From Aphrocallistes beatrix (lineage: Eukaryota; Porifera; Hexactinellida; Sceptrulophora; Aphrocallistidae), in NCBI GenBank assembly GCA_963281255.1, contig OY725504.1:434001-498000 (forward strand): DNA of 64,000 bases. The letters are read 5' to 3'. The notes under the pieces were generated by a model. The model was not told the DNA's origin, ran no database searches, and was given only the letters and a program-made list of their open reading frames with translations. Shown here one piece after another: positions 18,705-63,828 of this stretch (its first letter is position 1; each line of letters begins with the position of its first letter). The position numbers and the translations under genes are program-made.

Positions 18705-21700
18705 CTATATAGTAATACTGTTGGGACAGTTGCTGGAAAGTAGGTAGGTGTATGGCATATCCAAGGTCTTGTTCCTCTCCTTAATCCTTTCATTGAGTGT
18801 CTTCAACTGATCCAGGAATTTGGTAACGCAGTCTTTCGCTTTTTGTTCTGTATACCACATCGTCGGATAACCGCCGAGGTAAATCTAAAATTGTTAAATT
18901 CAAATGATTCGGTCAAGTTATTTACAATGAGGATCTAAAGAAGAATTCTCTACACTATTAATGAATGAAATCAAAATGCTATTTATTATTGACGATGATG
19001 TATCGTTTTCTCGTCTTCTCGAGATAATTTTGAGATCAACTAATAGTATGTACATGATTTATGAAATAAGATCAGGGTCTAACTACCCTCACAGGGCATT
19101 TGATACGTACACGAACCGCCTGTTGGATTACTTAGCTTGCTGCTATCTATCACTTGTTAATAAGAGTTCGTTCAAACGTTACTTAATGCAAATTCTCTGA
19201 TTTTAGACATCCTCCTTCCTGTCTCGCTTTTACCATCATGTGAAAGTTGTAATACAACAATGGTAGGACAGTCACACTTTGTACCCCGTACCCCCTAGGA
19301 AGCATTACATAACGTTTGAACTATGATGATTAAAACAGCTTACTTCATCTGGACTGAATCGTGATAGAGCCCAGGTTACAGTAACAGCTAATGCAGTTGA
19401 CATCGTAGTTGGTAGTGTGTTGAGTAGATCCGTATGACTCCTCTCTCCTTTCTTGGACGGAAGAGGCATCCTCATGCTCATTGGAGCATTTGGTACGTAG
19501 CCGTAAGTTTGAAACTGTCCAAAGTTGACTGCAGAGTGCTGAACAGACCCAGTGAACATGATCAGTGTGCAGTACTCGCTTAGCATCTTCTTAGTAGTGA
19601 TTTTATCTGGAAAACCACGGCCGCTTTTGTTTCCTTTGAATTCAGGGAATGCGTTTTGATGAATATCTTCAACCCAGTTTTTCAGCTCACTGTCATCTTC
19701 TACAGATTTGTCGTTTGTGTAAAATATATCAAGAATTGAGGCTACAAACGTTTCGATTGCATCCCAAAGTCTCACTCCATCATCTCTGTAGAAGTAGTTG
19801 GGAAGTTTCTTACTGTTATCTGGAGAAATTCCTCGTGCATCTAAATCTTTTCTTATGTTAGTCCAGTGCACATCATAGGCAGCGTTAGTCCTTCTCACTA
19901 ACTCAGCTTTTCCTGATGAACTATCTTCGCCTCCGATTGAGAATAACTGGTCTATCTTTCCTCCGTCATTAACGAGGGTCTCACGTGCTGCCTTATTTAT
20001 AGCCATCGTGTAACGGAAATGAGGTCGTAGTAGTTTGTACACTGGATGTGCATCAGGGAGATTCCTCATTGTAGCCACACCATATGCTTCCATGACTGCA
20101 TGACAGGATATGAAGTGAGTGGATAGTTGATGATGCTGTAATGGATATAATTTTATAACATGGATTTATGTCAGTGTTACATTAAGAGGTAATAACTCCA
20201 TAGTATGCACCATGTCTACTGGCTGTCCGGTTTCAACCTAACCTATTTTGACCAATTTATCCTCAAAAAGAACCATTTTGTACGATCGGATTGGTTTCAA
20301 CCTGACAACATTTTAGTCTTAGCCGGACCACTTTACACCTGTAACTACGGACTTGAGAAGTGGCTAGTTGCAATTCAATCCAAATACTTTGCATTTAATC
20401 AACATCTTGCTTGTACAATGTTATATCTACTAATTAGTAACATACCTGTCCATGAGCGGATAAATAGTACATCTTTGCTAACAGCCAATCAATCCTATCG
20501 TCTGATGGTAAGAATATGGGATTGTCTGCTGCTATGTCTCTCTTCAACTGTATCGCTATGGGAACTAACTGATTGCTCCCGTTGACGTAAAGGAGGCAGA
20601 GTGGAGCAGCACAGTATTGGTTTTCTTTGCTGGGAAGTCCATGCATAATTTGGCTCAGGTCACATATGTAGATACGATCATCCTATATGAAGATATGACA
20701 GATGACGCTATAGTTATTAGTAATATATAATCAATATAAACCACAAAGGTCCATGATAATTTATCTTGATATAACCCTTCATGCAGTAGCAGCTTCACAG
20801 GAGAGAGTGGCTCTCTACCTTTTGTCTTGATTTTTATGCATCAAAAGAATGAATATAAAGGTAAATTAGATCAAAATTATCGCCCAATAGATGTTCAGAA
20901 TATCTGTAAATTGATATTTCTGCGTCTAAGATTTGAAAGAAAATTTTTTTGGGGGGGGGGACCCCAGACCCCCTATTTGCTCGCTTCGCTCCCTCAATGC
21001 TCCTGCTTAACGCTGGTATTCTAAATTATAGGACAGTTGAATTTAAGTTCTCCCCCTAAATTAAAATTTCTGGAGGTGCCACTGCCTTCACGCAGAAAAA
21101 GTACAAACTACACTTTATCAATTGTGATCAATAATTTCCTCGACCAAGTATTAGCAAGTACAATGAATTACCTGCATTGCTTGCTCTAATGAATGTCCGT
21201 TGTTAAGAAACTGCTGTACCATCTCATTGGTCACAGGGAAATTGTCTGGTAGAGCATTGCATTTCTTCACGACAACACAATTAACTCCGTTCAGGATCTG
21301 CTCTCCAAAGTGCACATCACTAGCGAATCGATACGTTTCATAAGCAACGAGCATTTCCTGACTACTCAATTCTGCTTCTGTATTTGCAGATTCGTCAACA
21401 AGGCCTTTTGCAACTTTATAGAAATTATGGAGACTATGCATTGAGTCTACGCCTAGCGCTTCATGAGACCCGAATTTCTTCTCAATGAGTTGCTCAATTT
21501 TAATAAAAATACTTTTCCCAGTAGTTAGAAGGCCGGTTTTTTTGAGATTATCAATGAAATTCATATCTTTCACACGTTCAAATACTTCATCCAATGGATG
21601 TTTCTCATGCATAGTCATGGACGATGGAAACCCAACATCTGGAAAGAATTCCCAGATATACTGATTCTTTCTCTCCTGGACCTGTTTGAATCTCTGTTCC

Positions 21701-22621
21701 TCGATGATGCGATTACCTTCAACAGATCTCAGAATTCCTAAAAATGAGAGAGATTAAAGTGATTATTTTCAGATGTTAATATCCATATTATATAGTTGTA
21801 GCTTCAAATGTTTGCATCATATTAATATAAACACACGAATATGATGTTATAGTATAGAAGTGGCTTTTAAAACATTAAGCAGTCTCATTTCAAAGAGTCG
21901 AATGATAACATAAAACCTGTTTAAATATCCATTTACCTGTGCTAGCAGAATTAGTTTGTTCTTCTCCATCTCCAAGCCAGTGGTAGCAAGGAAAGTTCTG
22001 TTCCAACTTGCTCTTAAGGTTGATCACATAAGTAAAATCTACGAACCAATTCGCACTACTCTCATAGAATCTTGCACTATCGTTTGAAACTGTCACAAGT
22101 TGTATCTCTCCCAAATCTGCTTCGCACTCAATGATGTAATCGTCGTAGGTATCTTCAGACGAATGAAGCCAGTTGAAGAAACTACCGATCCAAATCTTTC
22201 CAGTTTTCGCGACATTTCCGATTAGTTCCACAGATACAGTGTTGTCACGATCACTTCCTAACTGACTTCCTGTTACTATGCGGACTCCATAGTAATGGCG
22301 ATCTGGATATGTATCTATAATTGAGTCTTAGTCAAAATTATCTGATAGTAACTCCTCTATGTGTAATCTATCTGGCTTATTACAGTTAGAATTGTCCAAT
22401 CATTTTATAATAGGGATTAATCTGAGTTAAATAAAATAAATACTTCCTAAAATGGCTACGAATCTTCCGATTTTAAATGTTAACTCACTGTAGGGTTGGA
22501 GGTTGAATGGAGGCAATTCCAAAACTACCACTTGTGTCATTGGGTCCTTATTGGTGTCTTCGTATTTCTTGAATTTACCATGCTTGTTGATTGAACACTT
22601 TGCAGTGGGAACTGATGACAT
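18705..22621 (-). CDS. LOX1: arachidonate-type lipoxygenase (type A), 761 aa
   Basis: Exons in gene order: 22489-22621, 21937-22314, 21172-21737, 20446-20682, 19344-20135, 18705-18884; phases agree. Exons 1-2 encode the PLAT/C2-like membrane-binding domain ending FPCYHWLGDG. Exons 3-6 encode the catalytic domain. Non-haem iron ligands seen: His440 and His445 (HQLSTH), His638 and Asn642 (QHSAVN), and the C-terminal Ile761 (NSITI). Ala483 (YTMAIN) sits at the Coffa-Brash position, which in the family predicts S-stereospecific oxygenation. Role: dioxygenation of polyunsaturated fatty acids to hydroperoxides. Positional specificity cannot be read safely. At 761 aa it is longer than human 5-LOX (673). 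It is divergent from LOX2. Exon 5 shares the RETLVNDGGKID segment with LOX4, although LOX4 is type B. Confidence 0.92.
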
Positions 22622-24557: not shown

Positions 24558-27500
24558 ATGTCAATATACAACTCAATTCCCATTGCAGACTGCTCTATCA
24601 ACAAGTATGAGGGATTCAAGAAATATAAAGACACCAATAAGGAGCCACTAACGCAAGAGGTAGTTTTAGAATTGCCTCCGTTCAACCTCCAACCCAAAAG
24701 TGAGTTAACAATTAAAATCGGAGTCGTAATTATTAACCCATTCATATAAAATAATGTTTATTATAATATATAATCTTTACTAAGACTTGTCATTTTAGAT
24801 GAAAATCCAGATCACCATTACTATGGAGTCCGCATAGTAACAGGAAGTCAGTTAGGAAGCTCACATGACAGCACTGTATCTGTGGAACTAATCGGAGATG
24901 TCGGAAAAACTGGAAAGATTTGGATCGGTAGCTACTTCAACTGGCTTCATTCGTCTGAAGATACCTACGACGATTACATCATTGAGTGTGAAACAGATTT
25001 GGGAGAGGTACAACTTGTAACAATTTCAAACGATAGTGCAAGATTCTATGAGAGTAGTGCGAATTGGTTCGTAGACTTTACTTATGTGATCAACCTTAAG
25101 AGCAAGTTGGAACAGAACTTTCCTTGCTACCACTGGCTTGGAGATGGAGATGAACAAACTAATTCTGCTAGCACAGGTAAATATTGGATCATACTTCTTT
25201 AAGCAAGATTTATTAGTTCTATTTCACTCAAAAATAAGAATTCGTGCTGGTATAAAGCCATAAATTTGCAATTACACCTCATTCGTGTGCCATTAATTGT
25301 CTATTAACACTTTCAAACGCGCTTCGCTTGCTTGCGCTGCGCGGCTGGATAATATCCCCAAATTCGTCAGTCTTACTGTTACAATCGATATCACTTTTTT
25401 ATTTTTGATGCATAATGATGACGTCATAACAGTGATAACTCTTCATTTTTTATGATAGTTGTATTATATGAGAGAGATATTAATGTACTCATTTTATCAA
25501 AATTTCAGGCTTTGATCACCTAAAATGGCTGAGTTATAGTCTAAATACAGTAAGGGTCGCTTATTATGAACCCACTTAATATGAACATTCTTTTATTATG
25601 AACTATTCTCCTGGTCCCAACTTCATTTTTTAGATAGAATTTGTATTGTATTTCTATTATGAACAGATTTTTTGGTCCCCTGGTGGTTCACAATAAGCGA
25701 CCCTGACTGTATATATAAATACGAGTATATATCAATCGAGTTATAATAGTAAGGATGAATAAATACAGTATTCCAATCTTTCTCATTTTTAGGAATTCTG
25801 AGATCTGCTGAAAGTAATCGTATAATCGAGGAACAGAGATTCAATCAGGTCCAGGAGAGAAGAAATCAGTATATCTGGGAATTCTTTCCAGATGTTGGGT
25901 ATCCATCAGCCATGACTATGCATGAGAAACATCCATTGGATGAAGCATTTGAACGTGTGAAGCAGATTAATTTCATTGATAATCTAGCAACAAGCGGTAT
26001 TTTGGCCAATGGGAGAAGTATTTGGTTGAAAATTAATCACCTAATTGAAAATGCCTTTGGTTCTTATGAAGCACTAGGGACTCAATCAATGCATAGTCTC
26101 CATAATTTCTACACAATTGCGAAAGGCCTTGTAGATAAATCTTCCTCAGGAGTGGAAATGAATAATCAGGAAATGCTCGTTGCTTATGAAACGTATCGAT
26201 TCGCTAGTGATGTGCACTTTGGAGAGCAGATCCTGAACGGAGTTAATTGTGTTGTCGTGAAGAAATGCAATACTCTACCAGACAACTTCCCTGTGACCAA
26301 TGAGATGGTACAGCCGTTTCTTAACAATCAACAAACATTGGAGCGGGCAATAAAGGTAAATTTTCTTATACTCATTACTACAAGTGGAAAATACATAATG
26401 TAAAGAATGCCAAATTTTTCCATTTGTCCTAAAATCCACTATTTCTAAAAAGCCATTTTTAAAAGTGAAAACATCCTATACGCTTCCTTATCGCAGGATT
26501 AATTATTCCAGTAGGAAAATTTGTCAAGACTAATCCTATCCGCATAAGTGTATTACAGTTTACCATTATCTGCAATTTCGTGACTATTTCTATGAGTATA
26601 TATGTTGCAGTGTAAATGCGAAACTGGTGTATTCGCGAATACACCGGTGGATTCGCGAATACACTGACTATAGTTGGTGGATTCGCGAATACACCGGTGC
26701 AAATGCGAAACCTTTTTATCTTAAATCTTAAGGTTGATTTATATTTCTCATAAGAACAACTAGATTACAACAAAACTTTTAATCAAGATCAATGAATGTA
26801 AAACCTTATTCTAAATCGTTTTCATGTAATCTTCAAGCATGATAAATTATTCTTACATTACATACATCACTCCTCATGCTATGCTACGTATATTATTTGC
26901 TTTTTGGTATGTTTTTGAAACTTTACTTTCTCGTGCCAAAAATGTAGTTGTATAGTAGCTTTGAAAACATGTTGTTTACATCATCTTACTGTCAAATTTT
27001 TAGTTATGAAACAGCTGAGTATTACTACTAATAGTGTAAATACTACGTATTTCCTTTGAGTTATATATTAACCTACCATAAGATTTAAGATAAAAAGGTT
27101 TCGCATTTGCACCGGAGTTTTCGCGAATCCACCAACTATTCAGTGTATTCGCGAATCCACCAGTTTCGCATTTACACTGCAACATATATAAGCGAAATAC
27201 AAGTAGAGATGTACCATGGAAATTTGTATAACACAGTAATCGAGTCAATAATCCATTCAAATTATTCCGCATTCAGCAGCATCCTATTTTATCTGTCATA
27301 AATTATTTTCTTCTAGGATGATCGTATTTACATATGTGACCTGAGTCAAATTATGCACGGAGTTCCCTGCAAAGAAAACCATTACTGTGCTGCTCCACTC
27401 TGCCTCCTTTACGTCAACGGGAGCAATCAGTTAGTTCCTATAGCGATACAGTTGAAGAGAGACATAGCAGCAGACAATCCCATATTCTTACCATCAGACG

Positions 27501-29097
27501 ATAGGATGGATTGGCTGTTAGCAAAGATGTACTATTCCTCTGCTAGTGCGCAGGTATGTTACTAATTAGTACTATATTGATTGTATAAGAATAGCTAAAA
27601 AACTTGATTAGATGCAAGTTTTGAGCAATAATGTATACATATACTCGTATATAATGATACATTCCATTTCTCCATTACAGCATCATCAGCTATCCACTCA
27701 CTTCATATCCTGTCATGCAGTCATGGAAGCATATGGTGTGGCTACAATGAGGAATCTCCCTGATGCACATCCAGTGTACAAACTACTACGACCTCATTTC
27801 CGTTACACGATGGCTATAAATCAGGCAGCACGTAGTAGCCTCATTAATGACGACGGAATTATAGACCAGTTATTCTCAATCGGAGGTGAAGATAGCTCAT
27901 CAGGAAAAGCTGAGTTAGTGAGAAGGACCAACGCTATCTATGATGTGCACTGGACTAACATAAGAAAAGATTTAGATGCACGAGGAATTTCTCCAGATGA
28001 CAGTAAGAAACTTCCCAACTACTTCTACAGAGATGATGGAGTGAGACTTTGGGATGCAATCGAAACGTTTGTAGCTTCAATTCTAGATATATTTTACACA
28101 AACGACAAATCCGTAGAAGATGACAGTGAGCTGAAAAACTGGGTTGAAGACATTCATCAAAATGCATTCCCTGAATTCAAAGGAAACAAAAGCGGCCGTG
28201 GTTTTCCAGATAAAATCACTACTAAGAAGATGCTAAGCGAGTACTGCACACTGATCATGTTCACTGGGTCTGTTCAGCACTCTGCAGTCAACTTTGGACA
28301 GTTCCAGACTTACGGCTACGTACCAAATGCTCCAATGAGCATGAGGATGCCTCCTCCGTCCAAGAAAGGAGAGAGGACTCATACAGATCTACTCAACACA
28401 CTACCAACTACTTTATCAACTGGATTAGCTGTTACTGTAACCTGGACTCTATCACAATTCAGTCCAGACGAAGTAAGTTATTTATTGAATATTCGCCTCA
28501 TTTGAAATAATTTTAAGGTAGTGGCTAGAGTGCAAGCAAAATATTTGAGACTATCATGTTTTTTTTATGGCAAGATGCGTCAGGTCCACAAATTTTACCA
28601 ATAGAAAGGAAGATTAAAAATAAGTGATTAAGAATCCTAATTAATAATATTAGGAAACTCAATTCTGAACAGTTTCTAGCGTTTGAATTTAGAATGGAAA
28701 ATTTAGGAATTTTCCGCTTCAGAATAGTCTGACTATTTACAAATTTTTGCCTCGTCAAGTACCTTTTGGTATCTTTTTCCATGATATATCTTTCATATTT
28801 AAAACAACGTCTGCTTCCAGCACTTTCGATAACTGTATCTATTATTCCGTTGCTGGCACTTGGTTTATTTCTCATATATCTCTTTGATCTCCATTTTATC
28901 TCCATATATCTATATAGATATATCTCGGTGGTTACCCGACTATGTGGTATACAGAACAGAAAGCAAAGGACTGCGTCACTAACTTCCTAGATCAGCTGAA
29001 ACTCCTGAATGAGGATATTGAGAAGAGAAATGAGATGCTTGATATCCCCTATAGGTATCTGTTATCAACTCAATGCCCAAACAGTATTACCATTTAG
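24558..29097 (+). CDS. LOX2: arachidonate-type lipoxygenase (type B), 763 aa
   Basis: Exons: 24558-24699, 24799-25176, 25793-26355, 27317-27553, 27681-28472, 28918-29097; phases agree. PLAT domain in exons 1-2, LOX catalytic domain in exons 3-6. Iron ligands: His442, His447 (HQLSTH), His640, Asn644 (QHSAVN) and terminal Ile763. Ala is at the Coffa-Brash position (YTMAIN). The type B hallmarks are an exon 1 of 142 nt (133 in type A), an exon 3 of 563 nt (566 in type A) and the tail YLLSTQCPNSITI. Intron 2 carries a pogo-like insertion (25548-25709) and intron 3 a large inverted-repeat element (26601-27188). LOX4 lacks both, so LOX4 is close to the pre-insertion state. Biochemical role as for LOX1. 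Confidence 0.92.
25548..25709. mobile_element. Pogo-like element in LOX2 intron 2, with empty site in LOX4
   Basis: CAGTAAGGGTCGCTTATTAT at the left and AATAAGCGACCCTGACTG at the right, TA on both sides. LOX4 intron 2 has the same flanks joined at a single TA (about 42617), so the TA duplication is read directly. Confidence 0.85.
26601..27188. mobile_element. Large inverted-repeat element in LOX2 intron 3
   Basis: Arms of about 120 bp start TATGTTGCAGTGTAAATGCG and are mirrored at the right. Each arm contains repeated ATTCGCGAATACACC-type units and ends in a shared AAGATAAAAAGGTTTCGCA segment. LOX4 intron 3 lacks it. The target duplication is TA or TATA; the palindromic flank makes it ambiguous. 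No coding capacity. Confidence 0.75.
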
Positions 29098-30367: not shown

Positions 30368-30480
30368 TTTTGGGTTGGAGATTGAACGGAGGCAATTCTA
30401 AAACTACCGCTTGCGTTAATATATCCTTATTGGTGTCTTTATATTTCTTGAATCCCTCATACTTGTTGATAGAGCAGTTT
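30368..30480 (-). pseudogene. Orphan LOX exon 1 relic (type B)
   Basis: On the minus strand it reads as exon 1 of the type B genes (CSINKYEGFKKYKDTNKD, then VVLELPPFNLQPK) up to an intact GTGAGTT donor, and the intron 1 start is also recognisable. The first about 29 nt with the start codon are missing and replaced by unrelated sequence. No exon 2 follows, so it is a leftover of a lost or rearranged copy. Confidence 0.8.
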
Positions 30481-31711: not shown

Positions 31712-34700
31712 CTATATAGTAATACTGTTGGGACAGTTGCTGGATATTAGGTACCCATAGGGAATATCCAATTTCTCGTTTCTCTCCTTAATCCTTTCAT
31801 TGAGTATCTTCAACTGATCTAGGAAGTTAGTGACGCAGTCCTTTGCTTTCTGTTCTGTATACCACATCATCGGATAGCCACCGAGATATATCTATATAGA
31901 TATATGGAGATAAAATGGAGATCAAAGAGATATATGAGAAATAAACCAAGTGCCAGCAACGGAATAATATATACATTTATCTAAAGTGCTGGCAGCAGAC
32001 TTTTGTTCTAAAAATGAAAGGTATATCATTAGAAAAAGATTTGGAAAAACATTCATTTTCTCGTAGAAAATAATTTAGTTACTACGTACCAAAAATATCA
32101 AAAGGTACTTGACGAGGCTTTTTCAGGTAAAGATTTGTAAATAATCTATTCTGAAGTTGAAACTATCTAAATCCTTCAAACGCTAGAAACTGTTCAGAAT
32201 TGAGTTGCCTAATATTATTACTTAAGCTTCTTAAATACTTATTTTTAATCTTTCTTCCTATTGGTCCAGAAGTATTGTAAATGATGAATTTAGGTGTGCT
32301 TAAAGGCAAAGTCAAATTTGTGGACCTTACGTATCATGCCTTCAAAATAACATTATAGTCTGAAATCTTAAAGTACTGCTACGGCACTTCATGGCAATAA
32401 CAGAGCGTCGTACTCTAGCTACTCCCTTAAAATTATTTCAAATGAAGCGAATATTCGATAAATAACTCACTTCATCTGGACTGAATTGCGATAGAGACCA
32501 GGTTACAGCAACAGCTAATCCAGTTGACATCGTAGTTGGAAGAGTGTTGAGTAGATCTGTATGAGTCCTCTCTCCTTTCTTGGACGGAGGAGGCATCCTC
32601 ATGCTCATTGGAGCATTTGGTACGTAACCGTAAGCCTCGAATTGTCCAAAGTTGACTGCAGAGTGCTGAACAGACCCAGTGAACATGATCAGTGTGCAGT
32701 ACTCGCTTAGCATCTTCTTAGTAGTGATTTTATCTGGAAAACCACGGCCGGTTTTATTTCCTTTGAATTCAGGGAATGCGTTTTGATGAATATCTTCAAC
32801 CCAGTTTTTCAGCTCACTGTCATCTTCTACAGCTTCGTCGTCTGTGTAAAATATATCAAGAATTGAAGCTACAAACGTTTCAATTGCATCCCAAAGTCTC
32901 ACTCCATCATCTCTGTAGAAGTAGTTAGGAAGTTTCTCATTGTCATCTGGAGAAATTCCTCGTGCATCTAAATCCCTTCTTATGTTAGTCCAGTGCACAT
33001 CATAGATAGCGTTAGTCCTTCTAACAAACTCAGATTTTCGTGATGAGTCACCTTCACCACCGATTGAGAGTAGCTTGTCTATAATTCCGCCGTCATTAAT
33101 GAGGCGACTACGAGCAGCAGAGTTTATAGCCATCGTGTAACGAAAATGAGGTCGTAGTAGTTTGTACACTGGATGTGCATCAGGGAGATTCCTCATTGTA
33201 GCCACACCATATGCTTCCATAGCTGCATGACAGGATATGAAGTGAGTGGATAGCTGATGATGCTGTAATGGAGAAATAGAATGTATCATTATATATACAA
33301 TATGTATTGCTATTCTTATACAATCAATATAGTACTAATTAGTAACATACCTGTGCACTAGCAGAGGAATAGTACATCTTTGCCAACATCCAATCAATCC
33401 TATTGTCTGATGGTAAGAATATGGGATTATCAGCCGTTATGTCTCTCTTCAACTGTATCGCTATGGGAACTAACTGATTGCTCCCGTTGACGTAAAGAAG
33501 GCAGAGTGGAGCAGCACAGACTTGTTTTTCTCTGCAGGGAATTCCATGCATAATTTGGCTCAGGTCGCATATGTAAATTCGATCATCCTAGAGGAAAATA
33601 ATTTATAACATATAAAATAGGATGCTACTGAATACGGGTAAATTTGAATGGATTATTGACCCGATTATTGTATTACGTCTCTATTTCGCTTATAATTATT
33701 TGTAGAAATTGCAATGAAATTGCAGATCACGGTGAACTGTAATACATTTATGCAAATAGAATAAGCACTGACAAATGTTCCTACTGTGGAATAACTAATC
33801 CTGCGATAAGGAAGCGTATAGGACGTGTTTACTTTTTAAAATGGCTTTTTAGAAGTATTGGATTTTAGGACAAAGGCAAAATTTGGCATATCTTTACATT
33901 ATGTATTTTCCACTTGTAGAAATGAGTATAAGAAAATTTACCTGCATTGCCTGCTCTAATGTTTGTTGGTTGTTAAGAAACGGCTGTACCATCTCATTGG
34001 TTACAGGGAAATTGTCTGGTAGAGCATTGCATTTCTTCACGACAACACAATTAACTCCGTTCAGGATCTGCTCTCCAAAGTGCACATCACTAGCGAATCG
34101 ATACGTTTCATAAGCAACGAGCATTTTCTTATTATTCATTTCTGCTCCTGAAGAAGATTTATCTACGAGGCCTTTCGCCATTGTGTAGAAATTATGTAGA
34201 CTATGCATTGATTTAGTTCCTAGTGAATCATTGGAAGCGAAGACCTTTCCAATTTGGTGATTAATTTTCACCCAAATTCCTCCCCTCTTGGCCCAAGTAC
34301 CGCCTGTTTCTAGATTATTAGTGAAATTAATCTGCTTCACACGTTCAAATGCTTCATCCAACGGAAGATGCTCATGCATAGTCATGGCTGATGGATACCC
34401 AACGTCTGGAAAGAATTCCCAGATATACTGATTCCTTCTCTCCTGGACCTGATTGAATCTCTGTTCCTCGATTATACGATTACATTCAACAGATCTCAGA
34501 ATTCCTAAAAATGAATAAGATTGGAATACTGTATTTATTCCTCCTTACTATTAAAACTCGATTGATATATACTAGTATTTATATGTATCTAGACTATAAC
34601 TCAGCCATTTTAGGTAATCAAAGCCTGAAATTTTGATAAATGTGTACATTAATATATCTCTCTTATAATACAACTATCATAAAAAATGATGACTCATCAC

Positions 34701-46670: not shown

Positions 46671-46814
46671 ATGGCAACAAAAAATCCATTTCCTACCACA
46701 AAAGGTCATATTAAGAAAAATCAAAGGTTCAAAAGCTACGAAGGTGATACAAAAAAGATAAATTGACGCAAACTGTGAACACAGATTTGCCAAAATTCAA
46801 TCTCGATGTACACA
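46671..46814 (+). pseudogene. LOX5 exon 1 with a one-base frameshift
   Basis: Starts ATGGCAACAAAA. The encoded pattern is that of exon 1 of the other genes: an FKSYEGDTKK part in one frame and LTQTVNTDLPKFNLDVH in the next. The frame breaks at a run of six A (about 46751-46756), where seven would keep it open; as it stands a TGA follows. The donor is GTCAGT. With one base added the length would fit the phase of the other copies. Sequencing error is a possible alternative. Confidence 0.65.
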
Positions 46815-47158
46815 GTCAGTTAAATATTCAATTAAGAAATATAATTTGTATTATTAAAATTGTAGATCTATAGACCGATAGTAGAAGCTCCAGTAAGTGA
46901 CTGGAAGAGTGCAAAGAATAAATATAGTAAAAATTGAGAAATATTTCGATGAGAGCTAACTAAGTGGGTAATTTGGACACGAAATGTAAATATTCTAAAA
47001 CATCGGCAAATATTCATTTTAGAGTTTTCTATCTTTAAACAAAGTGATGAGATTTTGCGGAAAAATGTTGACGGTGCACATCTGCACCATAAAGAGTTCC
47101 TATATGCGAAATTTGGTAAAAATCGGACTGTTGGATTTCACAGTAGCGTGCGTACGGA

Positions 47159-47466
47159 CATATATACATACATACATACATACATACATACATACATACA
47201 TACATACATACATACATACATACATACATACATACATACATACATACATACATACATACATACATACATACATACATACATACATACATACATACATACA
47301 TACATACATACATACATACATACATACATACATACATACATACATACATACATACATACATACATACATACATACATACATACATACATACATACATACA
47401 TACATACATACATACATACATACATACATACATACATACATACATACATACATACATACATACATA
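47159..47466. repeat. (TACA)n microsatellite, about 300 bp
   Basis: About 76 near-perfect tetranucleotide units, within what would be LOX5 intron 1. It ends about 28 bases before the exon 2 homology. The long open frames across it in several phases are artefacts of the repeat. Confidence 0.98.
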
Positions 47467-47493
47467 AAATTTTATGAGCTATTTTTTAATTAT

Positions 47494-50400: not shown

Positions 50401-52875
50401 GGCACGCGGCACAATTCACTATGGTAAACCCCCATATGGACCATAAATTATTAAAATATAATTGACCCATGGATATTCATGCGATATCAAATCGAATGAA
50501 TATAGAAAATTAATGTTTCCTGGAAAACCGGATCAAATAACCAAACCGGGTCACCGGGAAATCTTGACCCGGTTCAAGCCTGATAAGAACCATTTATTTG
50601 GGAACGGATTATTTTCTATTTATTACTATTTAAACAGAACCGGTTATAAGAACATTCTATCAATAATTTCTAGAATTATTAGTAGTCAAGTTCTCATTTT
50701 TTCACTCGTACACAACCAATTTTGTAATTTCTGACTCCTGTATCTTCTACCTTGCTCACTTTTTCGAGCTTACTACTATTTATTAGGTTAGGGACCAATC
50801 TTCTTATAGCCGATGAAAAGAACAAAATATGTTCTTATAACCGACAATAGATGTTCTTATAACCAATAAAAAGAACAAAATATGTTCTTATAACCGACAT
50901 ATCTGATCTCTTATGTCGTAAAAAGAACAAAATATGTTCTTATAACCGACATATCTGATCTCTTATGTCGGTTATAAGAACATTTTTTCAACTCCCAACG
51001 ATGTTCTTTTATCAAAATTTGAGTTCCGGATAAGAGAGGTGATTGTAAAATAGATATTCTATAAAGGAAAAGAAACTATTCCATTGCGATTGATTAATAC
51101 ATTTTAAGCAGTATTTACCCCTGAATATATTAGATGTCGCAATTATCTTCCAAATTCATTATCAAAGTTCATTAAATAATATTACATGATAATGATTGCT
51201 GGAATTGTGGTTAATAATTGACTTGAAAATAGGACAAAGCATATTGACTAAATGTCGAAAGGGCTGCCCGGTTGAGAGAGGTGCCCGGATATCGGAGGTC
51301 CGGATAAGAGAGGTTCGAGTGTATGTGTATATACAGTAGAACTCGGTTAGTACGTACCCCCCCAGGAAGCGGAAAAAAGTACGTACTAACCGAGTTGATA
51401 TTACATAGGTATCTATATAATAAATGAATTTTTGTTCAGAGAAATGAGTACGTACTAAGCCGAAGTACGTCTTATCCCTACACTATTAACCGATAAAAGC
51501 TACAAAATACTTTATATTACGTTTATGTGCCGAAAAGTGTTTTAACTTCGTCATTACAACCAGTCACACGTATCGAAATAGAACAAATACAGCTGACTTA
51601 TCCGAAATTATTTGCATAATCGATAAAACGGTAAAGGTTTACAACATTTTTCCATTACAGCATCATCAGCTATCTACTCACTACATATCCTGCCATGCAG
51701 TCATGGAAGCATATGGTGTGGCTACAATGAGGAATCTCCCTGATGCACATCCAGTGTACAAACTACTACGACCTCATTTCCGTTACACGATGGCTATAAA
51801 TCATGCTGCACGTAAGGCCCTCATTAATAACGACGGAATTATAGACCAGTTATTCTCAATCGGAGGTAAAGATAACACATCAGGAAAAGCTGAGTTTATT
51901 AGAAGGACTAACGCTATCTATGATGTGCACTGGACTAACATAAGAAAAGATTTGACTGCACGAGGAATTTCTCCAGATGACAATAAGAAACTTCCCAACT
52001 ACTTCTACAGAGATGATGGAGTGAGACTTTGGGATGCAATCGGAACGTTTGTAGCTTCAATTCTAGATATATTTTACACAAACGACAAATCTGTAGAAGA
52101 TGACAGTGAGCTGAAAAACTGGGTTGAAGATATTCATCAAAACGCATTCCCTAAATTCAGAGGAAATAAAAGCGGCCGTGGTTTTCCAAATAAAATCACT
52201 ACTAAGAAGATGCTAAGCGAGTACTGCACACTGATCATGTTCACTGGGTCTGTTCAGCACTCTGCAGTCAACTTTGGACAGTTCCAAACTTACGGCTACG
52301 TACCAAATGCTCCAATGAGCTTGAGGATGCCTCCTCCGTCCAAGAAAGGAGTGAGGACTCATACGGATCTACTCAACACACTACCTACTACGATGTCAAC
52401 TGGATTAGCTGTTACTGTGGCATGGGCTCTATCACAGTTCAGTCCAGACGAAGTAATTTGATTTAATAAACATATTTATGAAATATTGATACTTGTTTAT
52501 CTATAATAAAATCCTATCACTTCCGGTTTTCAAAGCATATAATCATCTTTATTACATATCTTTTAAAGATATAATGAAATCTGAACGACTACTAATGTAG
52601 GTTATTGAATTTTGTAAAATCCGATTATCGCATTTGATTTTAGACAAAAGCATTATTCTCATTGATCGATTACAAGATACCTTCATTAAATTTAGATTTA
52701 TCTCGGTGGGTATCAGACGATGTGGTATACAGAACAGAAAGCGAAAGACTGCGTTACGAAATTCCTGGATCAGTTGAAGACACTCAATGAAAGAATTAAG
52801 GAGAGAAACGAGAAATTGGATGTTCCCTATAGGTACCTGATATCCAGCAACTGTCCCAACAGTATTACTATATAG
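47494..52875 (+). CDS. LOX5: divergent lipoxygenase, exons 2-6 (5' end decayed)
   Basis: Exons: 47494-47885 (homology start), 48743-49308, 49590-49826, 51661-52452, 52696-52875. Exon 2 encodes the PLAT end (FPCYHWIGSG). It has five extra residues after GSQL and lacks one base near its start. No AG acceptor in the right phase is seen before it. Exons 3-6 are fully open and in phase. All iron ligands are present (HQLSTH, QHSAVN, terminal NSITI). Exon 3 is the most divergent of the cluster (LDQRFDRVKNIDF) and ends ATGAAG with a GC donor (GCAAGT). The conserved catalytic part argues for recent function; the 5' damage argues for a pseudogene or a different first exon. Tail and 3' UTR are type A-like. 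Confidence 0.7.
50750..51010. repeat. Short inverted/tandem repeat cluster in LOX5 intron 4
   Basis: AATATGTTCTTATAACCGAC and TTCTTATAACCGACATATC recur several times, with reverse complements (GTCGGTTATAAGAACA) at the right. A gradient of pattern in both directions suggests a foldback element. Confidence 0.65.
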
Positions 52876-53449
52876 GACTTTATAGTGACGTGTGTGTGTG
52901 CTATATTTAGTTAATAGTTGTAGTAGGTAGCTTAGACTATCTTGTTAGAACCTTTAGGAACTTAGAACTGCAGTGGAGTGTGCTGATAGTTTAGTTCAGT
53001 CTTTGAAATATTTATTGAGTGTTTATAGGATTTATTAAATAAAAGTTGATAAACATAAATTTTAAATTTAATGGGAGAATAGTCTTGATGGAGATAATGC
53101 AAATAATCTCATTATTTGCACTAACTCTGTGGTAGCCCACAAATTTGACTTGACTATAGTAACTAAACTGTTTTCTACGTGAAAATGAATCTTTTTCCAA
53201 ATCTTTTCCGTGATATATCTTTCATATTTGAAACAAAAGTACCAGCACTTTAGATAAATGTGTCTATTATTCCGTTGCTGGCACTTGGTTTATTTCACAT
53301 ATATCTCTTTGATCTCCATTTTATCTCCATATATATATCCTTACTATTAAAACTCGATTAATGTGTGTGTATATATGTATATATATATCTCTCTCTGTAA
53401 CGAATTGATTGAAGAAACTACCAGGCGCAGAAAGCTGATTTTTCTTTTA

Positions 53450-53500
53450 CCCTATAGGTATCTGTTATCAACTCAATGCCCAAACAGTATTACCATTTAG
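53450..53500 (+). pseudogene. Relic of a type B LOX exon 6 (last 16 codons and stop)
   Basis: Reads CCCTATAGGTATCTG to the stop as in LOX2 and LOX4 (PYRYLLSTQC then NSITI). Upstream, 53160-53335 matches the 3' end of intron 5 of the type B genes, but the first part of exon 6 has been replaced by a repeat containing CCAGGCGCAGAAAGCTGAT, which also occurs at about 54767. This is what is left of a further type B copy. Confidence 0.85.
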
Positions 53501-53716
53501 GATTTTGAGTGCATGTGTATGTTTGTGTGTGCGTGATTATTTTTATTGACTATATACATTGGAAAAGTTTAAAATATTTTACTTTCTCTCATATTGTTCA
53601 ATATTTCAATAATTCAGTTCTGTATAATGAAATTAAACATTTCATGAATATGTCAAAGTGAATTCATATATGGTTCGGAGGAGTGTTGAGAAGGACTCCT
53701 TTACATGTGCTGCTTC

Positions 53717-54201
53717 CATAGGTGGCGATTTGAGCAAACAATTGGGGGCGAGATTTTTTTTCATCATCAGAGATTAGCATAATTAATTAACTATCATTAT
53801 AGTATATCAAGTAACATATGAGTTTATTAATGTATAATGGTAACTAGAAATATAGCAAATATCCAGATATGAAGTATTTTAACTCGATATCGAAGTTTCA
53901 AATATATTTTGTCTCACTTCATTTCGACTTATAAATTCCTTCAATAATTTCTTCATATTAAGGAGATCAAGTATAAAATCAACAGCGATTATTTTTTTGA
54001 AATCATACTACGTAGTATAATAAATGTTTATAGTGGACACCAATAATATAATGATAGTGTGCATTACTTAACATTACTTCACTTTTCCTAAGTAGTTGGT
54101 GTAGATATTAAATATTGGGGGCAAAATACTCTCCTACTTTAGATATTATTGGGGGGGGGGGGGCAATCGCCCTCCTTGCCCCTCCAGGATCGCCGCCTAT
54201 G
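53717..54201. mobile_element. hAT-like element, CATAGG ends, with empty site after LOX4
   Basis: Left end CATAGGTGGCGAT, right end ATCGCCGCCTATG. GCTGCTTC flanks it on both sides (53709-53716, 54202-54209). The paralogous LOX4 flank has a single GCTGCTTC (about 45759-45766). 485 bp, with a long G run near the right end. No coding capacity seen. Confidence 0.85.
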
Positions 54202-55886: not shown

Positions 55887-58800
55887 ATGTCATCAGTTCC
55901 CAATGCAAAGTGTTCCATCAACAAGCATGATAAATTCAAGAAATACGAAGACACCAATAAGGACCCAATGACACAAGTGGTAGTTTTGGAATTGCCTCCA
56001 TTCAACCTCCAACCCTACAGTGAGTTAACATTTAAAATCGGAAGATTCGTAGCCATTTTGGAAAGTATGATTTTATTAAACTATTATTATAAAATGATAG
56101 ACCAAAATTATTATAAAATGATAGGCTAATTCTAACTGTGATTTTAATTAAGTCTGAAAGATCACATATATACTATTAAATAATTTTGACTAAGACTCAA
56201 TTATAGATACAAATCCAGATGGCCATTACTATGGAGTCCGCATAGTAACAGGAAGTCAGTTAGGAAGTGACCGTGACAACACTGTATCTGTGGAACTAAT
56301 CGGAAATGTCGCCAAAACTGGAAAGATCGAAATCGGTAATTTCTTCAACTGGCATATATCATCCGAAGATACCTACGACGATTACATCATTGAGTGCGAA
56401 ACAGATTTGGGAGAGGTACAACTTGTGACAGTTTCAAACGATAGTGCAAGATTCTATCAGAGTAGTGCGAATTGGTTCGTAGACTTTACTTATGTGATCA
56501 ACCTTAAGAGCAAGTTGGAACAGAACTTTCCTTGCTACCACTGGCTTGGAGACGGAGAAGAACAAACTAATTCTGCTAGCACAGGTAAATGGATATTTAA
56601 ACAGGTTTTATGTTATCATTTGATTCTTTGAAATGAGACTGCTTAATGTTTAAAAAAGTCACTTCTATACTATAACACCATATTCGTGTGTTTATATTAA
56701 TATGATGCAAACATTTGAAGCTACAGCTATATAATATGGATATTAACATCTGAAAATAATCACTTTAATCTTTCCCATTTTTAGGAATTCTGAGATCTGT
56801 TGAAGGTAATCGTATCATCGAGGAACAGAGATTCAATCAAGTCCAGGAGAGAAGAAAAACATATATCTGGGAAATCTTTCCAGATGTTGGGTTTCCATCG
56901 TCCATGACTATGCATGAAAAACATCCATTGGATGAAAAATTTGAACGTGTGAAAAATGTTGATTTCCTTACTAACCAAGCAACAGGCGTTATTTCGTCCA
57001 CTGGGAGGAGTATTTGGGTTCTAATTACTCGACTAATTGGAAAGGTCTTTGGTTCTGAAGAAGCAGTGGCCGATGGCGCAATGAATAGTCTCCATGGTTT
57101 TTATAGAGTTGCAAAAGGTCTTGTAGATAAAACTGCAAAAGCAGAAGAGGAAATTAGCAGTCAGGAAATGCTCGTTGCTTATGAAACGTATCGATTCGCT
57201 AGTGATGTGCACTTTGGAGAACAGATCCTGAGCGGAGTTAATTGTGTTGTCGTGAAGAAATGCAATGCTCTACCAGACAATTTCCCTGTGACCAATGAGA
57301 TGGTACAGCCGTTTCTTAACAACGGACATACATTAGAGCAAGCAATGCAGGTAACTTTACTGTACTAGCTACAAATGGTCGATGAAATTATTGATCACAC
57401 TACCACGTGATAAAGTGTAGTTTGTACTTATTTCTGCATGAAGGGTTATATTAAAATGAATCATCATGGAGCCTTGTGGTTTATATTGATTCTACATTAG
57501 ACCATACTAATAACCATATATCTCCATATAGGGTGACCATATCTACATATGTGACCTGAGCCAAATTATGTATGGACTTCCTTGCAAGGAAAATGAATAC
57601 TGTGCTGCTCCACTCTGCCTTCTTTACGTCAACGGGAGCCATCAACTAGTTCCCATAGCGATACAGTTGAAGAGAGACAAAGGGAAAGACAATCCCATAT
57701 TCTTACCATCAGACAACAGGATTGATTGGATGTTAGCAAAGATGTACTATTCCTCTGCTAGTGGGCAGGTATGTTACTACTAATTAGTACATATAATATC
57801 TTATATATTAAAACGCAATGGGTTTTTTTGTGTTTTTGTTTGTGCAAATTGATTGAGGAATTGGGAAGTGCTAGAATCGTGAAATTTGGCTCACAGGTAA
57901 TTAATAATGAAACTAGGTAGGGAGTTCGAAGATCTAAGCGAAATGTTCACACCTCGCTGAGATAGGTGACAGATTGTGCTGACCATTTAAATTCGATTAT
58001 TTTATAATGCAAATACTTAGAATCAAACAGTAGTGACTAATGCATACAATTAAAGGGACTATTTCATTGGTTCATGTGAAAACTATAGTTATTTTATGAT
58101 TGAATTGATTGATCATAGCATGTAACACACTTTAATTGTTGTTAACGACATGGACTGAAATTGGTTGAAAGTATAATAATCTTTAGTAATGTGAACTTTC
58201 AAATTGACCTTACATTCAGGATTAGTTGATTTAGTACGAAGTAAATTCTATTTATCACGAACCTAAATCTTCTGCTACAGTTCAAAATTCGTCAAATGGT
58301 GTGAAAATATATACATAACCTTTTTTGTTGCTATACACTATTAAAAAATTAAGATATCTACTAGTACTATATAAGTTACGACGTATTGCTTTGAAGTTAA
58401 AATACAATGACAGTATATTGGAGTGTCTACAATGATTTCTATTGTGAGAGTGAAGCCATATATATTGTATAGAAAAGGTGCGAAAAATGGTTTCCATTCT
58501 TTCTGTCGAGATTTGAAAATTTCGCTTTTACTTTTAGCATGAACATAGCAAAATACTTCTTTGATTTGGCATGAATATGCCCATAGGCACCGAATCGGGG
58601 GGCTGGGGGGGCTCGAGACCCCCTGGATTCGAAGATGACCCATTGATGTAATACAAATTTTAGAGCTGAGCCCCCCTAGAACCACAAATTTTCCCATAAA
58701 TTTCGAAAAGTTCGGCGCCCCTGAATATGCCACCTACTTGGCATCAACATTCGGGTTTTGGCAAGAACTTGGCATGAACATTTCAAGGCAACACTAAACT

Positions 58801-61038
58801 TAATCCCTATCGGTCAATAAAATCAAGGCATAACATCTGTATATATAATTACTTTCAGGCCCGGCAGGAGGGTGGTTTGGCAAAAATCATATTTGAAAAA
58901 GTGCTAGGCAAAATTGTGGTTTTGCAATATCTGTAATAAAATATTCTACGAAAAATTGTTAAATGCTGTATCTGCCATACCGCTTCCTCCGACCCTGCAT
59001 TTAATGGCTGAACTAATATATTTGACTGAACCGGCCGAATATATTGGTCCGGTCATGGTTGTACCAATATTTATCACCGAATCGGTTGGTACGGCTTATA
59101 TATTAACCCATTGTCCTATTAAACAGGATTCATTGTATCTTTCTAATATCCAAATACCACCAGAGCTTCTGGGAAAAAATTGATAGATCTGTCGATCCCG
59201 GTTGCTGGACTAATAAAAATGTTCTTCCGCCGGGTCTGTGTATAATTATTGACAGGGGGTGGCAGAGTAGGACACTCCATAAGTTGGGATATATGTTTAT
59301 ATCTGGATGAAGCCCTTAATGTAACACTGATATAAATCTATATCTTTATTTTTTAATCCATCACAGCATCATCAACTATCCACTCACTACATATCCTGTC
59401 ATGCAGCCATGGAAGCATATGGTGTGGCAACAATGAGGAATCTCCCTGATGCACATCCAGTGTATAAACTACTACGACCTCATTTCCGTTACACGATGGC
59501 TATAAACTCAGCTGCTCGTAGGAGCCTCATTAATAACGGCGGAATTATAGACCAGTTATTCTCAACCGGAGGTGAAGATAACTCATCAGGAAAAGCTGAG
59601 TTAGTGAGAAGGAGTAACGCTGTCTATGATGTGCACTGGACTAACATAAGAAAAGATTTGACTGCACGAGGAATTTCTCCAGATGACAATAAGAAACTTC
59701 CCAACTACTTCTACAGAGATGATGGAGTGAGACTTTGGGATGCAATCGAAACGTTTATAGCTTCAATTCTAGATATATTTTACACAAACGACAAAGCTGT
59801 AGAAGATGACAGTGAGCTGAAAAACTGGGTTGAAGATATTCATCAAAATGCATTTCCTGCATTCAAAGAAAATAAAAGCGGCCGTGGTTTTCCAAATAAA
59901 ATCACTACTAAGAAGATGCTAAGCGAGTACTGCACACTGATCATGTTCACTGGGTCTGTTCAGCACTCTGCAGTCAACTTTGGACAGTTCCAGACTTACG
60001 GCTACGTACCAAATGCTCCAATGAGCATGAGGATGCCTCCTCCGTCCAAGAAAGGAGAGAGGACTCATGCAGACTTACTCAGCACTCTTCCAAATATGAA
60101 GTCAACTGGATTAGCTGCTGCTGTATCCTGGTCTCTATCACGATTCAGTCCAGACGAAGTAAGCTGTTTTAATCAATATTATATTAATAAGAAATACAAG
60201 TAGTTACTTCAACTGGGACTTTGTGTCAGCATCAAATGCCCTGCGAGCGTTTATAACCCTGAGCCATAGGCCCATAGCCCTCTGTACATAAGGCTTGCCA
60301 TCTAAATCTCAAAAATGGGCTAGGGATGCGGCCGAAGTTGGTTGAACTAATACATGATCTTCCTAAAGTCATTAACGACGCAGAATACAGCTTAGGAATG
60401 TATTACCAGCATATATAAATATGGTGTCAAAGTACCCATATCCGTTATTAAAATTGAGATTAGTCATCACATGATTGCGCAATAGGTTATATTTGAGACA
60501 AATTTAGTGATTTTCAGAGGCCGTTTAAGGGCACTTATAAGTGTTTTTACCATAATTTCTTTCGCATAGACCTGAGCTATGAATGGATTGATGCGATAAA
60601 TTTGAAATTTTCGCATCAATCCATTCACAGCTCAGTTTAATGCGAAAAAAATAATGATTTTAGGCAGATCATGTATTAGTTAGAAAACATGTATACATTA
60701 GTGAATTTCACATTTATTTTGAGAAGACGATGAAAACGATCCATGCTAAATAGTACACATTTTGAATTCATCTGTTAATAGAAGTGTAGAGAATTCTTCT
60801 TTAAATAGTCATTGTAATATAACTCGACCGAATCAGTTTAATTATAATTATTTTACAGATTTTTCTCGGTGGCTATCAGACGATGTGGTATACAGAACAG
60901 AAAGCAAAAGACTGCGTTAAAAAATTCCTGGAGCAGTTGAAAACACTCAATGAAAGGATTGAAAAGAGAAACGAGACATTGGACATCCCATACACCTACC
61001 TGATATCCAGCAACTGTCCCAACAGTATTACTATATAG
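55887..61038 (+). CDS. LOX6: arachidonate-type lipoxygenase (type A), 761 aa
   Basis: Exons: 55887-56019, 56207-56584, 56785-57350, 57532-57768, 59367-60158, 60859-61038; phases agree. PLAT domain, then LOX domain with His440, His445 (HQLSTH), His638, Asn642 (QHSAVN) and terminal Ile761; Ala at the Coffa-Brash position. Exon 1 begins MSSVPNAKC and, as in LOX1 and LOX7, follows GTAATACAATTTAGTTGAAATG, probably the end of a 5' untranslated exon. Exon 4 starts GDHIYICD instead of DDRIYICD. Intron 4 is long (1.6 kb) and holds an hAT-like element. The exon 3 variable region is closest to LOX7 (KTAKAEEE), so these two are probably the youngest tandem pair. Function as for LOX1. Confidence 0.92.
58582..58723. 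mobile_element. hAT-like element with CATAGG end, LOX6 intron 4
   Basis: Left end CATAGGCACCGAA and right end TTCGGCGCCCCTG. AATATGCC flanks both sides (58574-58581, 58724-58731). 142 bp, with C and G runs as in the other two members. Confidence 0.75.
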
Positions 61039-61048: not shown

Positions 61049-61052
<4 letters not shown>

Positions 61053-61117: not shown

Positions 61118-61119
<2 letters not shown>

Positions 61120-62022: not shown

Positions 62023-62173
62023 AACTTGTTACTGATAGAATTCTCACTAGTTGCTATCTGAAAGGAGTAATTAGGATATTACAGATTACGCATTTTAAAT
62101 ATTAGTTAATTACTTAATTATAAACAAATGTATCACTATATTTATATTTATTAGGTAATACAATTTAGTTGAA

Positions 62174-63828
62174 ATGTCATCAGTTCCCATTGCAAGATGC
62201 TCTATCAACAAGCATGATAAATTCAAGAAAAATAAAGACACCAATAAGGACCCAATGACACAAGTGGTAGTTTTGGAATTGCCTCCATTCAACCTCCAAC
62301 CCAACCGTGAGTTAACATTTAAAATCGAAAGATTTGTAGCCATTTTAGAAATTATATATTTTATTTAACTCAGATTAATGAGCTCAAATGACAAATCATT
62401 ATAAAATGATTGATAAATTACAACTGTTCTTTTAAGCCAGAAGGATCACACATAGGATATACTATATATGTCCGGTTTAATCGTGTCCCCATTAAAGAAT
62501 TTCGACTTACTATTATCTTTAAATAATCGCAGATATCATATTATTATCTGTTTAATTTTATTTACAATACTATATACATAAAGTAAACAAATCTCAAAAA
62601 TATGTCAGAAACTAGCTTAAACTTTGACATGAGGTTTTTAGGTGTGTAGCAGGAGTTACTATCAGATAATTTTGACTAAGACTCAATTTTAGATAAAAAT
62701 CCAGATCGCCATTACTATGGAGTCCGCATAGTAACAGGAAGTCAGTTAGGAAGTAACCGTGACAGCACCGTATCTATGGAACTAATCGGAAATGTCGCCA
62801 AAACTGGAAAGATTGGGATCGGTAATTTCTTCAACTGGCTTATATCGTCTGGAGATACCTACGACGATTACATCATTGAGTGTGAAACAGATTTGGGAGA
62901 GATACAACTTGTAACAATTTCAAACGATAGTGCAAGATTATATGAGAGGAATGCGAATTGGTTCGTAGACTTTACTTATGTGATCAACCTTAAGAGCAAG
63001 TTGGAACAGAACTTTCCTTGCTACCACTGGCTTGGAGATGGAGAAGAACAAACTAATTCTGCTAGCACAGGTAAATGGATATTTAAACAGGTTTTATGTT
63101 ATCATCTGATTCTTTGAAATGATACTGCTTAATGTTTAAAAGTCACTTCTATACTATAACACCATATTCGTGTGTTTATATTAATATGATGCAATCATTT
63201 GAAGCTACAACTATATAATATGGATATTAACATCTGAAAATAATCATTTCTCTCATTTTTAGGAATTCTGAGATCTGTTGAAGGTAATGGTATCATCGAG
63301 AAACAGAGATTCAAACAAGTCCAGGAGAGAAGGAATCAATACATCTGGGAAATCTTTCCAGATCTTGGGTATCCATCGGCCATGACTATGCATGCTAAAC
63401 ATCCATTGGATGAAGCATTTGAACGAGTGAAAAATATGAATTTTATTAATAACCAAGCAACAAGCGGTGCTTTGGCCGCTGGGAGGAGTGTTTGGGTTGT
63501 AATTGGTCAAATGGTTGGAAAGGTCTTTGGTTCTGAAGAACCAATAGCCGGTGACGCGATGCACAGTCTCCATGGTTTCTTTAAAGTTGCAAAAGGTCTT
63601 GTAAACAAAACTGCAAAAGCAGAAGAGGAAGTTAGTAGTCAGGAAATGCTCGTTGCTTATGAAACGTATCGATTCGCTAGTGATGTGCACTTTGGAGAGC
63701 AGATCCTGAACGGAGTTAACTGTGTTGTCGTGAAGAAATGCAATACTCTACCAGACAACTTCCCTGTGACCAATGAGATGGTACAGCCGTTTCTTAACAA
63801 CGGACATTCATTAAAGCGAGCAATGCAG
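62174..63828 (+). CDS. LOX7: arachidonate-type lipoxygenase (type A), exons 1-3 only; window ends in intron 3
   Basis: Exons: 62174-62306, 62693-63070, 63263-63828; phases agree with the other type A copies (133, 378 and 566 nt). It encodes the PLAT domain (ending FPCYHWLGDGEE) and the first part of the catalytic domain to the end of exon 3 (FPVTNEMVQ segment). The iron-ligand exons lie beyond the window, so activity cannot be judged. Exon 1 begins MSSVPIARC. The intron 1 acceptor gives HKNPDRHYYG where other copies give NENPD, NTYPD or NTNPD. Closest to LOX6 in exons 2 and 3. Confidence 0.88.

Follow-up and report, generated by a model that had tools for sequence, protein, structure and literature searches.

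Probable exon-by-exon gene conversion in an old, rearranged lipoxygenase array of the sponge Aphrocallistes beatrix

The subject of this report is an array of PLAT-lipoxygenase genes in the sponge Aphrocallistes beatrix (Hexactinellida). Seven of these genes lie between positions 18705 and 63828 of a stretch of 64,000 nucleotides (nt), here called the window, which corresponds to C18:434001-498000 (C18 is the contig that holds the window, OY725504.1 in assembly GCA_963281255.1). Window positions count from the first letter of the stretch, and positions prefixed with a contig name refer to the whole contig. The genome comprises 100.5 Mb in 28 contigs, and the evidence base is this one assembly and one gene family. 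A first-pass annotation of the window had recorded seven copies, a count that is borne out with the correction that the seventh gene, LOX7, is interrupted by the window edge and has its exons 4-6 beyond it. The array goes on past the window and comprises 10 genes on one contig (C18:452705-524977; 72,273 nt), with LOX8, LOX9, and LOX10 beyond the window and the last of them ending at C18:524977. A genome-wide search with the Lipoxygenase profile gave 16 matches over the cut-off, on C18, C2, C14, and C13, including three relatives outside the array, one each on C2, C14, and C13. The C13 gene is far more distant than the others; its exon 6 changes frame, and its exon 1 was not found.

Gene models were derived from tblastn and blastn searches with the LOX2 exons, the open spliced frame, and the splice borders. 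Three LOX2 exon frames were scanned against Pfam: exon 2 matches PLAT (PF01477, E 2.1e-11) and exon 5 matches Lipoxygenase (PF00305, E 1.7e-58), while exon 3 has no Pfam match. The PLAT/LH2 domain of the other copies is assigned by exon homology to LOX2. An exon plan of 133 or 142, 378, 563 or 566, 237, 792, and 180 nt with GT-AG borders is present in LOX1, 2, 3, 4, and 6, and also in LOX7 once the exons beyond the edge are counted. Of the six copies that the window contains in full, five bear out the claim that these lengths are kept in every complete copy, and LOX5, with its 144-nt exon 1 and 381-nt exon 2, does not. LOX1 and LOX3 lie on the minus strand and LOX2, LOX4, and LOX5-LOX10 on the plus strand; hence the in-window order is -,+,-,+,+,+,+, the two divergent pairs and head-to-tail run described previously. 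The accompanying view that growth was not by simple tandem duplication alone is likewise supported. Intron comparison (see below) divides the genes into clade A (LOX2, 3, 4, and 10), clade B (LOX1, 6, and 7), and clade C (LOX5, 8, 9, and the C2 and C14 genes). The in-window genes are listed here with their clade and, where it matters, their exon 6 type (discussed below).

18705..22621 (-): LOX1, clade B, intact, 761 amino acids (aa); exons 1-6 at 22489-22621, 21937-22314, 21172-21737, 20446-20682, 19344-20135, 18705-18884
24558..29097 (+): LOX2, clade A, intact, 763 aa, alpha-type exon 6; exons 1-6 at 24558-24699, 24799-25176, 25793-26355, 27317-27553, 27681-28472, 28918-29097
31712..35726 (-): LOX3, clade A, intact, 763 aa, mosaic exon 6; exons 1-6 at 35585-35726, 34997-35374, 33942-34504, 33351-33587, 32471-33262, 31712-31891
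41462..45530 (+): LOX4, clade A, intact, 763 aa, exon 6 equal to that of LOX2 over 180 nt; exons 1-6 at 41462-41603, 41815-42192, 42699-43261, 43609-43845, 43977-44768, 45351-45530
46671..52875 (+): LOX5, clade C, broken; exons 1-6 at 46671-46814, 47505-47885, 48743-49308, 49590-49826, 51661-52452, 52696-52875
55887..61038 (+): LOX6, clade B, intact, 761 aa; exons 1-6 at 55887-56019, 56207-56584, 56785-57350, 57532-57768, 59367-60158, 60859-61038
62174..63828 in the window (+): LOX7, clade B, intact, 761 aa; exons 1-3 at 62174-62306, 62693-63070, 63263-63828, and exons 4-6 past the window edge at C18:498017-498253, 502141-502932, 503187-503366, with the plan kept

Seven of the 10 array genes, LOX8 among them, are open through the full frame, as are the C2 and C14 genes. 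In LOX5, exon 1 is one base short in an A run (144 nt vs 145 in its relatives), which breaks the frame, and the original acceptor of exon 2 is gone, so that this exon starts 9 nt later (381 nt vs 390 in intact relatives). In LOX9, exon 2 is broken and exons 5 and 6 are truncated, and LOX10 has a frame break in exon 5. Together with exon 6 of the C13 gene, frames are broken in 4 of 13 copies, and part of these breaks could be assembly errors. LOX5 has a GC donor at exon 3. The resulting GC-AG intron is common to all five clade C genes and absent from clades A and B, which makes it a neat lineage marker for clade C.

The clades are defined by introns. Introns, without their first 6 nt (donor side) and last 15 nt (acceptor side), were compared against 15 shuffles each with a score cut of 60; introns above 1200 nt were compared by their two ends only. 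Scores exceeded 60 in 78 of 95 within-clade comparisons vs 12 of 235 between clades, and 7 of these 12 involve intron 5 of LOX9 or LOX10, the genes whose 3′ ends changed clade (see below). Intron 4 alone ranges from 88 to 3887 nt among the copies. Introns 1-5 of clades A and B are unlike although exons 2-5 of the same genes are at a synonymous divergence (dS) of 0.12-0.26. Same-clade pairs with similar exon 5 dS, in contrast, keep alignable introns; for example, intron 4 of LOX5 and the C2 gene is 84% alike at an exon 5 dS of 0.20. Across clades, homology stops close to the exon borders: in exon 1 it extends ~21-23 nt into intron 1 between A and B, and upstream of exon 5 it reaches ~10-15 nt, part of which may be splice-site constraint. 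The first-pass annotation had distinguished two subfamilies and one outlier. LOX5 is not a lone outlier and belongs to a third clade with LOX8, LOX9, and the C2 and C14 genes. Separately, intron 2 of LOX2, 3, 4, and 10 aligns with that of the C2 gene at scores of 140-296, the only strong between-clade likeness without a 3′ swap; it may reflect a shared repeat or intron exchange.

The exons tell a different story depending on their position in the gene. Pooled Nei-Gojobori dS (95% bootstrap ranges in parentheses) between A/B and the clade C genes on C18 falls from 1.00 (0.63-1.82) in exon 2 and 0.90 (0.64-1.25) in exon 3 to 0.39 (0.27-0.55) in exon 4 and 0.146 (0.11-0.18) in exon 5. Against the C2 and C14 genes, the corresponding values are 1.07, 0.88, 0.52, and 0.24. 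Exon 5 of the five other copies in the window is 93.6-96.0% identical to that of LOX2 over 792-793 nt, far beyond chance. Within clades, exon 5 dS is 0.150 (A), 0.151 (B), and 0.201 (C), and exons 2 and 3 are at 0.09-0.22; moreover, the silent sites of exon 5 are saturated in the comparison with the distant C13 gene. Hence, exon 5 is not slow as such, and only the between-clade part of its divergence is missing.

Whether clade membership explains silent identity was assessed by permuting the clade labels 2000 times under the groupings A|B|C and AB|C. For exons 2 and 3 the labels do explain it, with 0-2 permutations of 2000 as large as the observed value, and for exon 5 they fail to do so (1193 for A|B|C and 159 for AB|C). 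Exon 6 of all 12 genes carries no clade signal either (594 and 1854). The separate phylogeny of each exon, proposed with the original description, agrees in part: the clades are found in exons 2 and 3 combined, with full support for C (100/99), moderate support for A (94/94), and weak support for B (54/38), while they fall apart in exon 5, and exon 6 rejects C and A. The subfamilies are therefore not whole-gene units, as exon 5 is without subfamily structure and exon 6 cuts across it. A silent-site run test (137 silent codons, 11 genes with LOX9 left out, 55 pairs, 5000 permutations) gave four fragments at global p < 0.05, three of which join A and C genes in exons 5-6: LOX10/LOX8 from exon 5 codon 180 to exon 6 (p 0.0004), and LOX2/LOX5 and LOX4/LOX5 at exon 5 codons 21-89 (p 0.0026 and 0.0034). 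The fourth is LOX7/LOX2 in exons 2-3 (p 0.029).

Exon 6 exists as two types that cut across the clades. The alpha type is present in LOX2 and LOX4 (clade A) and in LOX9 (clade C), and the beta type in the remaining 9 of 12 genes; the approximately unbiased (AU) test rejects a single clade C (3.5e-7) and a single clade A (1.6e-5). In LOX3, an A-type intron 5 is followed by an exon 6 that is alpha-like to about its middle and then beta-like, and by a beta-type 3′ flank, which places one breakpoint inside its exon 6. Stretches of 497-856 nt of 3′ flank, 80-90% alike, are common to LOX3, 6, 8, and 10, across clade boundaries. The AATAAA signal lies ~170-200 nt after the stop codon and the shared flanks run past it; the transfers of these 3′ ends were therefore transfers of DNA. 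LOX10, a clade A gene, also has a clade C intron 5 (87% to LOX8).

From the gene models, the per-exon synonymous divergence, the missing intron homology, and the mosaic exon 6 we infer that recurrent interlocus gene conversion, working exon by exon in an old and rearranged lipoxygenase array, is the probable cause. Silent divergence between paralogue lineages is lowered to the within-lineage level in part of the gene, and paralogues share silent-site fragments, both of which are marks of conversion. Congruence between the trees of different gene parts is rejected for exon 6 and not for the poorly resolved exon 5. The proposed history is that of an old, much rearranged array under repeated conversion with some unequal exchange. 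The introns of A, B, and C being hardly alignable, exchange between lineages would be possible only in the exons, the last islands of homology; conversion would be confined to them because the introns are no longer homologous, and tracts would end at the splice sites or a little beyond them. Exchange would have wiped out the lineage differences in the C-terminal half, leaving exon 5 uniform and exon 4 nearly so, and in exon 6 two old types would have been moved between lineages. Exons 1-3, coding for PLAT and the N-terminal portion of the catalytic domain, would have kept the old split between A+B and C. The escape of exons 2-3 might be due to a larger protein divergence that stopped exchange early, or to selection opposing exchange.

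Several observations weigh against this history. Exon 4 retains a weak clade signal (21 of 2000 permutations for A|B|C and 0 for AB|C), and leaving out LOX9 and LOX10 brings out an A|B|C signal in exon 6 (10 of 2000) but none for AB|C (1132 of 2000). The exon 5 tree, in which the clades fall apart, is poorly resolved, and the AU test keeps both one C (p 0.26) and one A+B (p 0.25); since it rejects neither, the case rests on divergence levels and not on topology. Four comparisons of A introns 2 with that of the C2 gene, and intron 4 of LOX10 with that of LOX6, also align. Finally, homogenisation does not simply follow exon length, since exon 3 (566 nt) escaped it and the shorter exons 4 and 6 are more homogenised. 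Identity or selection must therefore matter too.

Other explanations have to be weighed against recurrent conversion. It is extremely improbable that the copies represent alleles, or fewer genes duplicated by the assembly. The broken frames could hint at sequencing or assembly error; yet orientation is mixed, the introns differ in length as well as content, three other contigs carry relatives, open frames run through seven genes of the array, and the closest exon pairs are mostly only 94-97% alike. We therefore reject this reading, and the local expansion claimed earlier is a real one. Exon 5 might instead be alike without any exchange, through synonymous sites that mutate slowly or are constrained by splicing, RNA structure, or codon use. 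The lower between-clade amino-acid divergence in exon 5 (dN 0.061 vs 0.28-0.31 in exons 2-3) would fit such constraint. A slow exon would nevertheless keep its clade structure, of which exon 5 shows none, and its within-clade dS, as high as that of exons 2-3, and its saturation against C13 are incompatible with slow silent sites. Constraint is accordingly rejected as a very unlikely explanation.

A single ancestral crossover or fusion, by which the ancestor of A and B acquired its 3′ half from a C gene, followed by radiation without later exchange, would account for a break between old and young divergence that falls between exons 3 and 4, and for an exon 5 dS of the same order as that within both radiations. 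Introns 4 and 5 should then align as C-derived, but among the 35 A/B-C pairs intron 4 never exceeds the score cut and intron 5 does so in seven, each time with LOX9 or LOX10; nor would such an event explain why A and B introns differ despite similar exons. We reject this scenario, to which we assign a low probability. Comparably low is the probability that reverse transcripts of spliced messages, starting from their 3′ ends, homogenised exons 4-6, with DNA-templated exchange beside them for the exon 6 flanks and LOX10. The restriction of A/B-C homogenisation to exons 4-6, the 3′ end of the message, with introns 4 and 5 untouched, is what cDNA would produce, and, if true, RNA-templated concerted evolution would have a natural example in an animal. 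The shared flanks beyond AATAAA, the homology into intron 1 and upstream of exon 5, and the inclusion of intron 5 in the LOX10/LOX8 exchange speak against it, as does the finding of no intronless copy among the genome lipoxygenase matches examined. As the 3′ flanks were transferred as DNA and LOX10 carries a clade C intron 5, a cDNA template is not needed, though one may have acted on exons 4-5.

Exon-limited conversion is already known in other gene families. In the copepod Tigriopus californicus, conversion between GOT1Sd and GOT1Sr is largely exon-restricted, an intron is unalignable, and one copy is decaying (PMC3728101). The sponge array resembles that system in exon-limited conversion between paralogues, unalignable introns, and decaying copies; GOT1 is one pair with one intron, whereas 10 linked and two unlinked genes, five introns, and a strong contrast between 5′ and 3′ exons are involved here. 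In the mammalian TLR1/TLR6 pair, conversion maintains likeness in the C-terminal part, and the N-terminal part has drifted apart (PMC2077338). That case covers two genes over nine species, whereas here there is one genome with many genes and non-homologous introns between the converted exons. For gene conversion in an animal lipoxygenase array, the listed titles and abstracts from searches of the open-licence literature showed no report.

The array thus offers a natural case of genes with a common catalytic exon whose front halves and introns diverge separately. With homogenised and non-homogenised exons side by side, it is useful for studying the limits that identity, exon length, and selection set on gene conversion. 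Since exons 5 and 6 have histories different from those of exons 1-3, whole-gene trees and product predictions for such clusters mislead. The mammalian ALOX cluster is another set of clustered lipoxygenase genes with a shared exon plan and known products, and it resembles the sponge array in clustering and in a common exon plan.

The best sequence matches for LOX2 in the PDB are coral 8R-LOX (2fnq, E 2.5e-125) and human 5-LOX (3o8y, E 3.7e-124). The array proteins share the PLAT and lipoxygenase domains with the 8R-LOX domain of the coral allene oxide synthase-lipoxygenase (2fnq, 3dy5, and 3fg1) and with human 5-LOX (3o8y and 3v92), and match both at the iron-ligand positions and the C-terminal Ile. 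They differ from the coral and human enzymes in having ~763 aa and an extension N-terminal to PLAT; moreover, they have Ala where coral 8R-LOX has Gly at the stereo-control position, and no fused peroxidase domain in the gene models. The HxxxxHxxxxH motif with the first iron-binding His is present in all 12 copies examined and QHxxxN (QHSAVNFG) in 10, as LOX9 and LOX10 break before it; the C-terminal PNSITI is found in eight of the nine intact genes, the C14 gene having PNSITV with Val for the final Ile. We take these His, His/Asn, and C-terminal Ile positions to be iron ligands. All 12 copies have an IN..AR motif whose Ala aligns with human 5-LOX Ala410 and coral 8R-LOX Gly427, the residues at the stereo-control position. 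Apart from the final Val in C14, the residues aligned to the iron ligands and the stereo-control Ala are the same wherever the frame is readable. Exon 5 holds five of the six positions that align with the metal site or border it. That the expansion diversified oxylipin production, as the first-pass annotation suggested, is not established by these residues, and the exon that holds most of them is homogenised. By the Coffa-Brash rule, Ala at the stereo-control position denotes an S-type lipoxygenase, and S-type oxygenation is predicted. We infer enzyme activity, membrane binding, and stereochemistry: each gene likely encodes an iron-dependent fatty-acid lipoxygenase of the S type that binds membranes and has a near-constant catalytic core behind a variable front. 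In the pocket, the positions corresponding to 5-LOX 359/424/425/603 hold Ala or Gly, Leu, Phe or Leu, and Val or Ser, respectively; these are not known to form a combination diagnostic of a 5-, 8-, 12-, or 15-lipoxygenase, and a product prediction from them was rejected.

Protein variation is concentrated in exon 3, and its fastest-changing stretch, codons 61-110, aligns with the 5-LOX helix carrying Phe177 and Tyr181, which caps the active-site entrance. Phe is kept at the Phe177 position, while the Tyr181 position has Leu, Gln, or, in the C13 gene, Phe. In codons 71-90, dN exceeds dS both in A+B (0.40 vs 0.30) and in C (0.20 vs 0.08). Over the wider codons 61-115, dN/dS is 0.72 (0.44-1.15) in A+B and 0.68 (0.40-1.25) in C, not above one, and positive selection on exon 3 is rejected as a demonstrated result. 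If the exon 3 differences alter substrate entry, the array would be a test bed for the diversification of oxylipin enzymes around a fixed active site.

Fragments of lipoxygenase genes also lie between the complete copies. Two in the window are as follows.

30368..30478 (-): stray exon 1 and start of intron 1, closest to clade A, with no exons 2-6 following
53157..53720 (+): alpha-type 3′-end relic with the end of intron 5, an exon 6 tail (53450-53500), and 3′ flank

The stray exon 1 is 94.6% identical to LOX2 exon 1 over 111 nt within a stretch of homology of ~175 nt. The 3′-end relic sits downstream of the beta-type 3′ end of LOX5; it is 78% alike to LOX4 over 616 nt, and its exon 6 tail is identical to that of LOX2 at 51 of 51 nt. 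Similar exon 6 pieces also occur behind LOX7 (C18:504876-505131). At C2:1574557-1575000, the end of an A-type exon 5 and the following intron sequence (82-90% to LOX2, 3, and 4) lie ~1.2 kb or more before the clade C gene there, which implies that A- and C-type genes were once neighbours on C2 too.

Other sequences adjoin or interrupt the array. A ferritin open frame (PF00210, E 2.2e-38; window 17431-18003, +) lies directly beside it. Between LOX2 and LOX3 is a 188-aa Ala/Gly/Lys-rich open frame (window 30528-31094, -) that has no Pfam match and, in NCBIfam, a weak match only, far under its cut-off. It has three copies in the genome, 60-67% alike, the others at C18:526360-526827 and C18:528365-528835, so that all three are on C18 inside or just beside the lipoxygenase array; the frame is possibly a second family co-amplified with it. 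A perfect-looking (ACAT) microsatellite of ~77 units (window 47158-47466) ends ~40 nt upstream of LOX5 exon 2, the exon with the displaced acceptor. Interspersed tandem arrays, built of units of ~31-32 nt, are found at window positions 1970-2080, 7008-7122, 35962-36151, and 36372-36668, the last two lying close together in opposite sense between LOX3 and LOX4.

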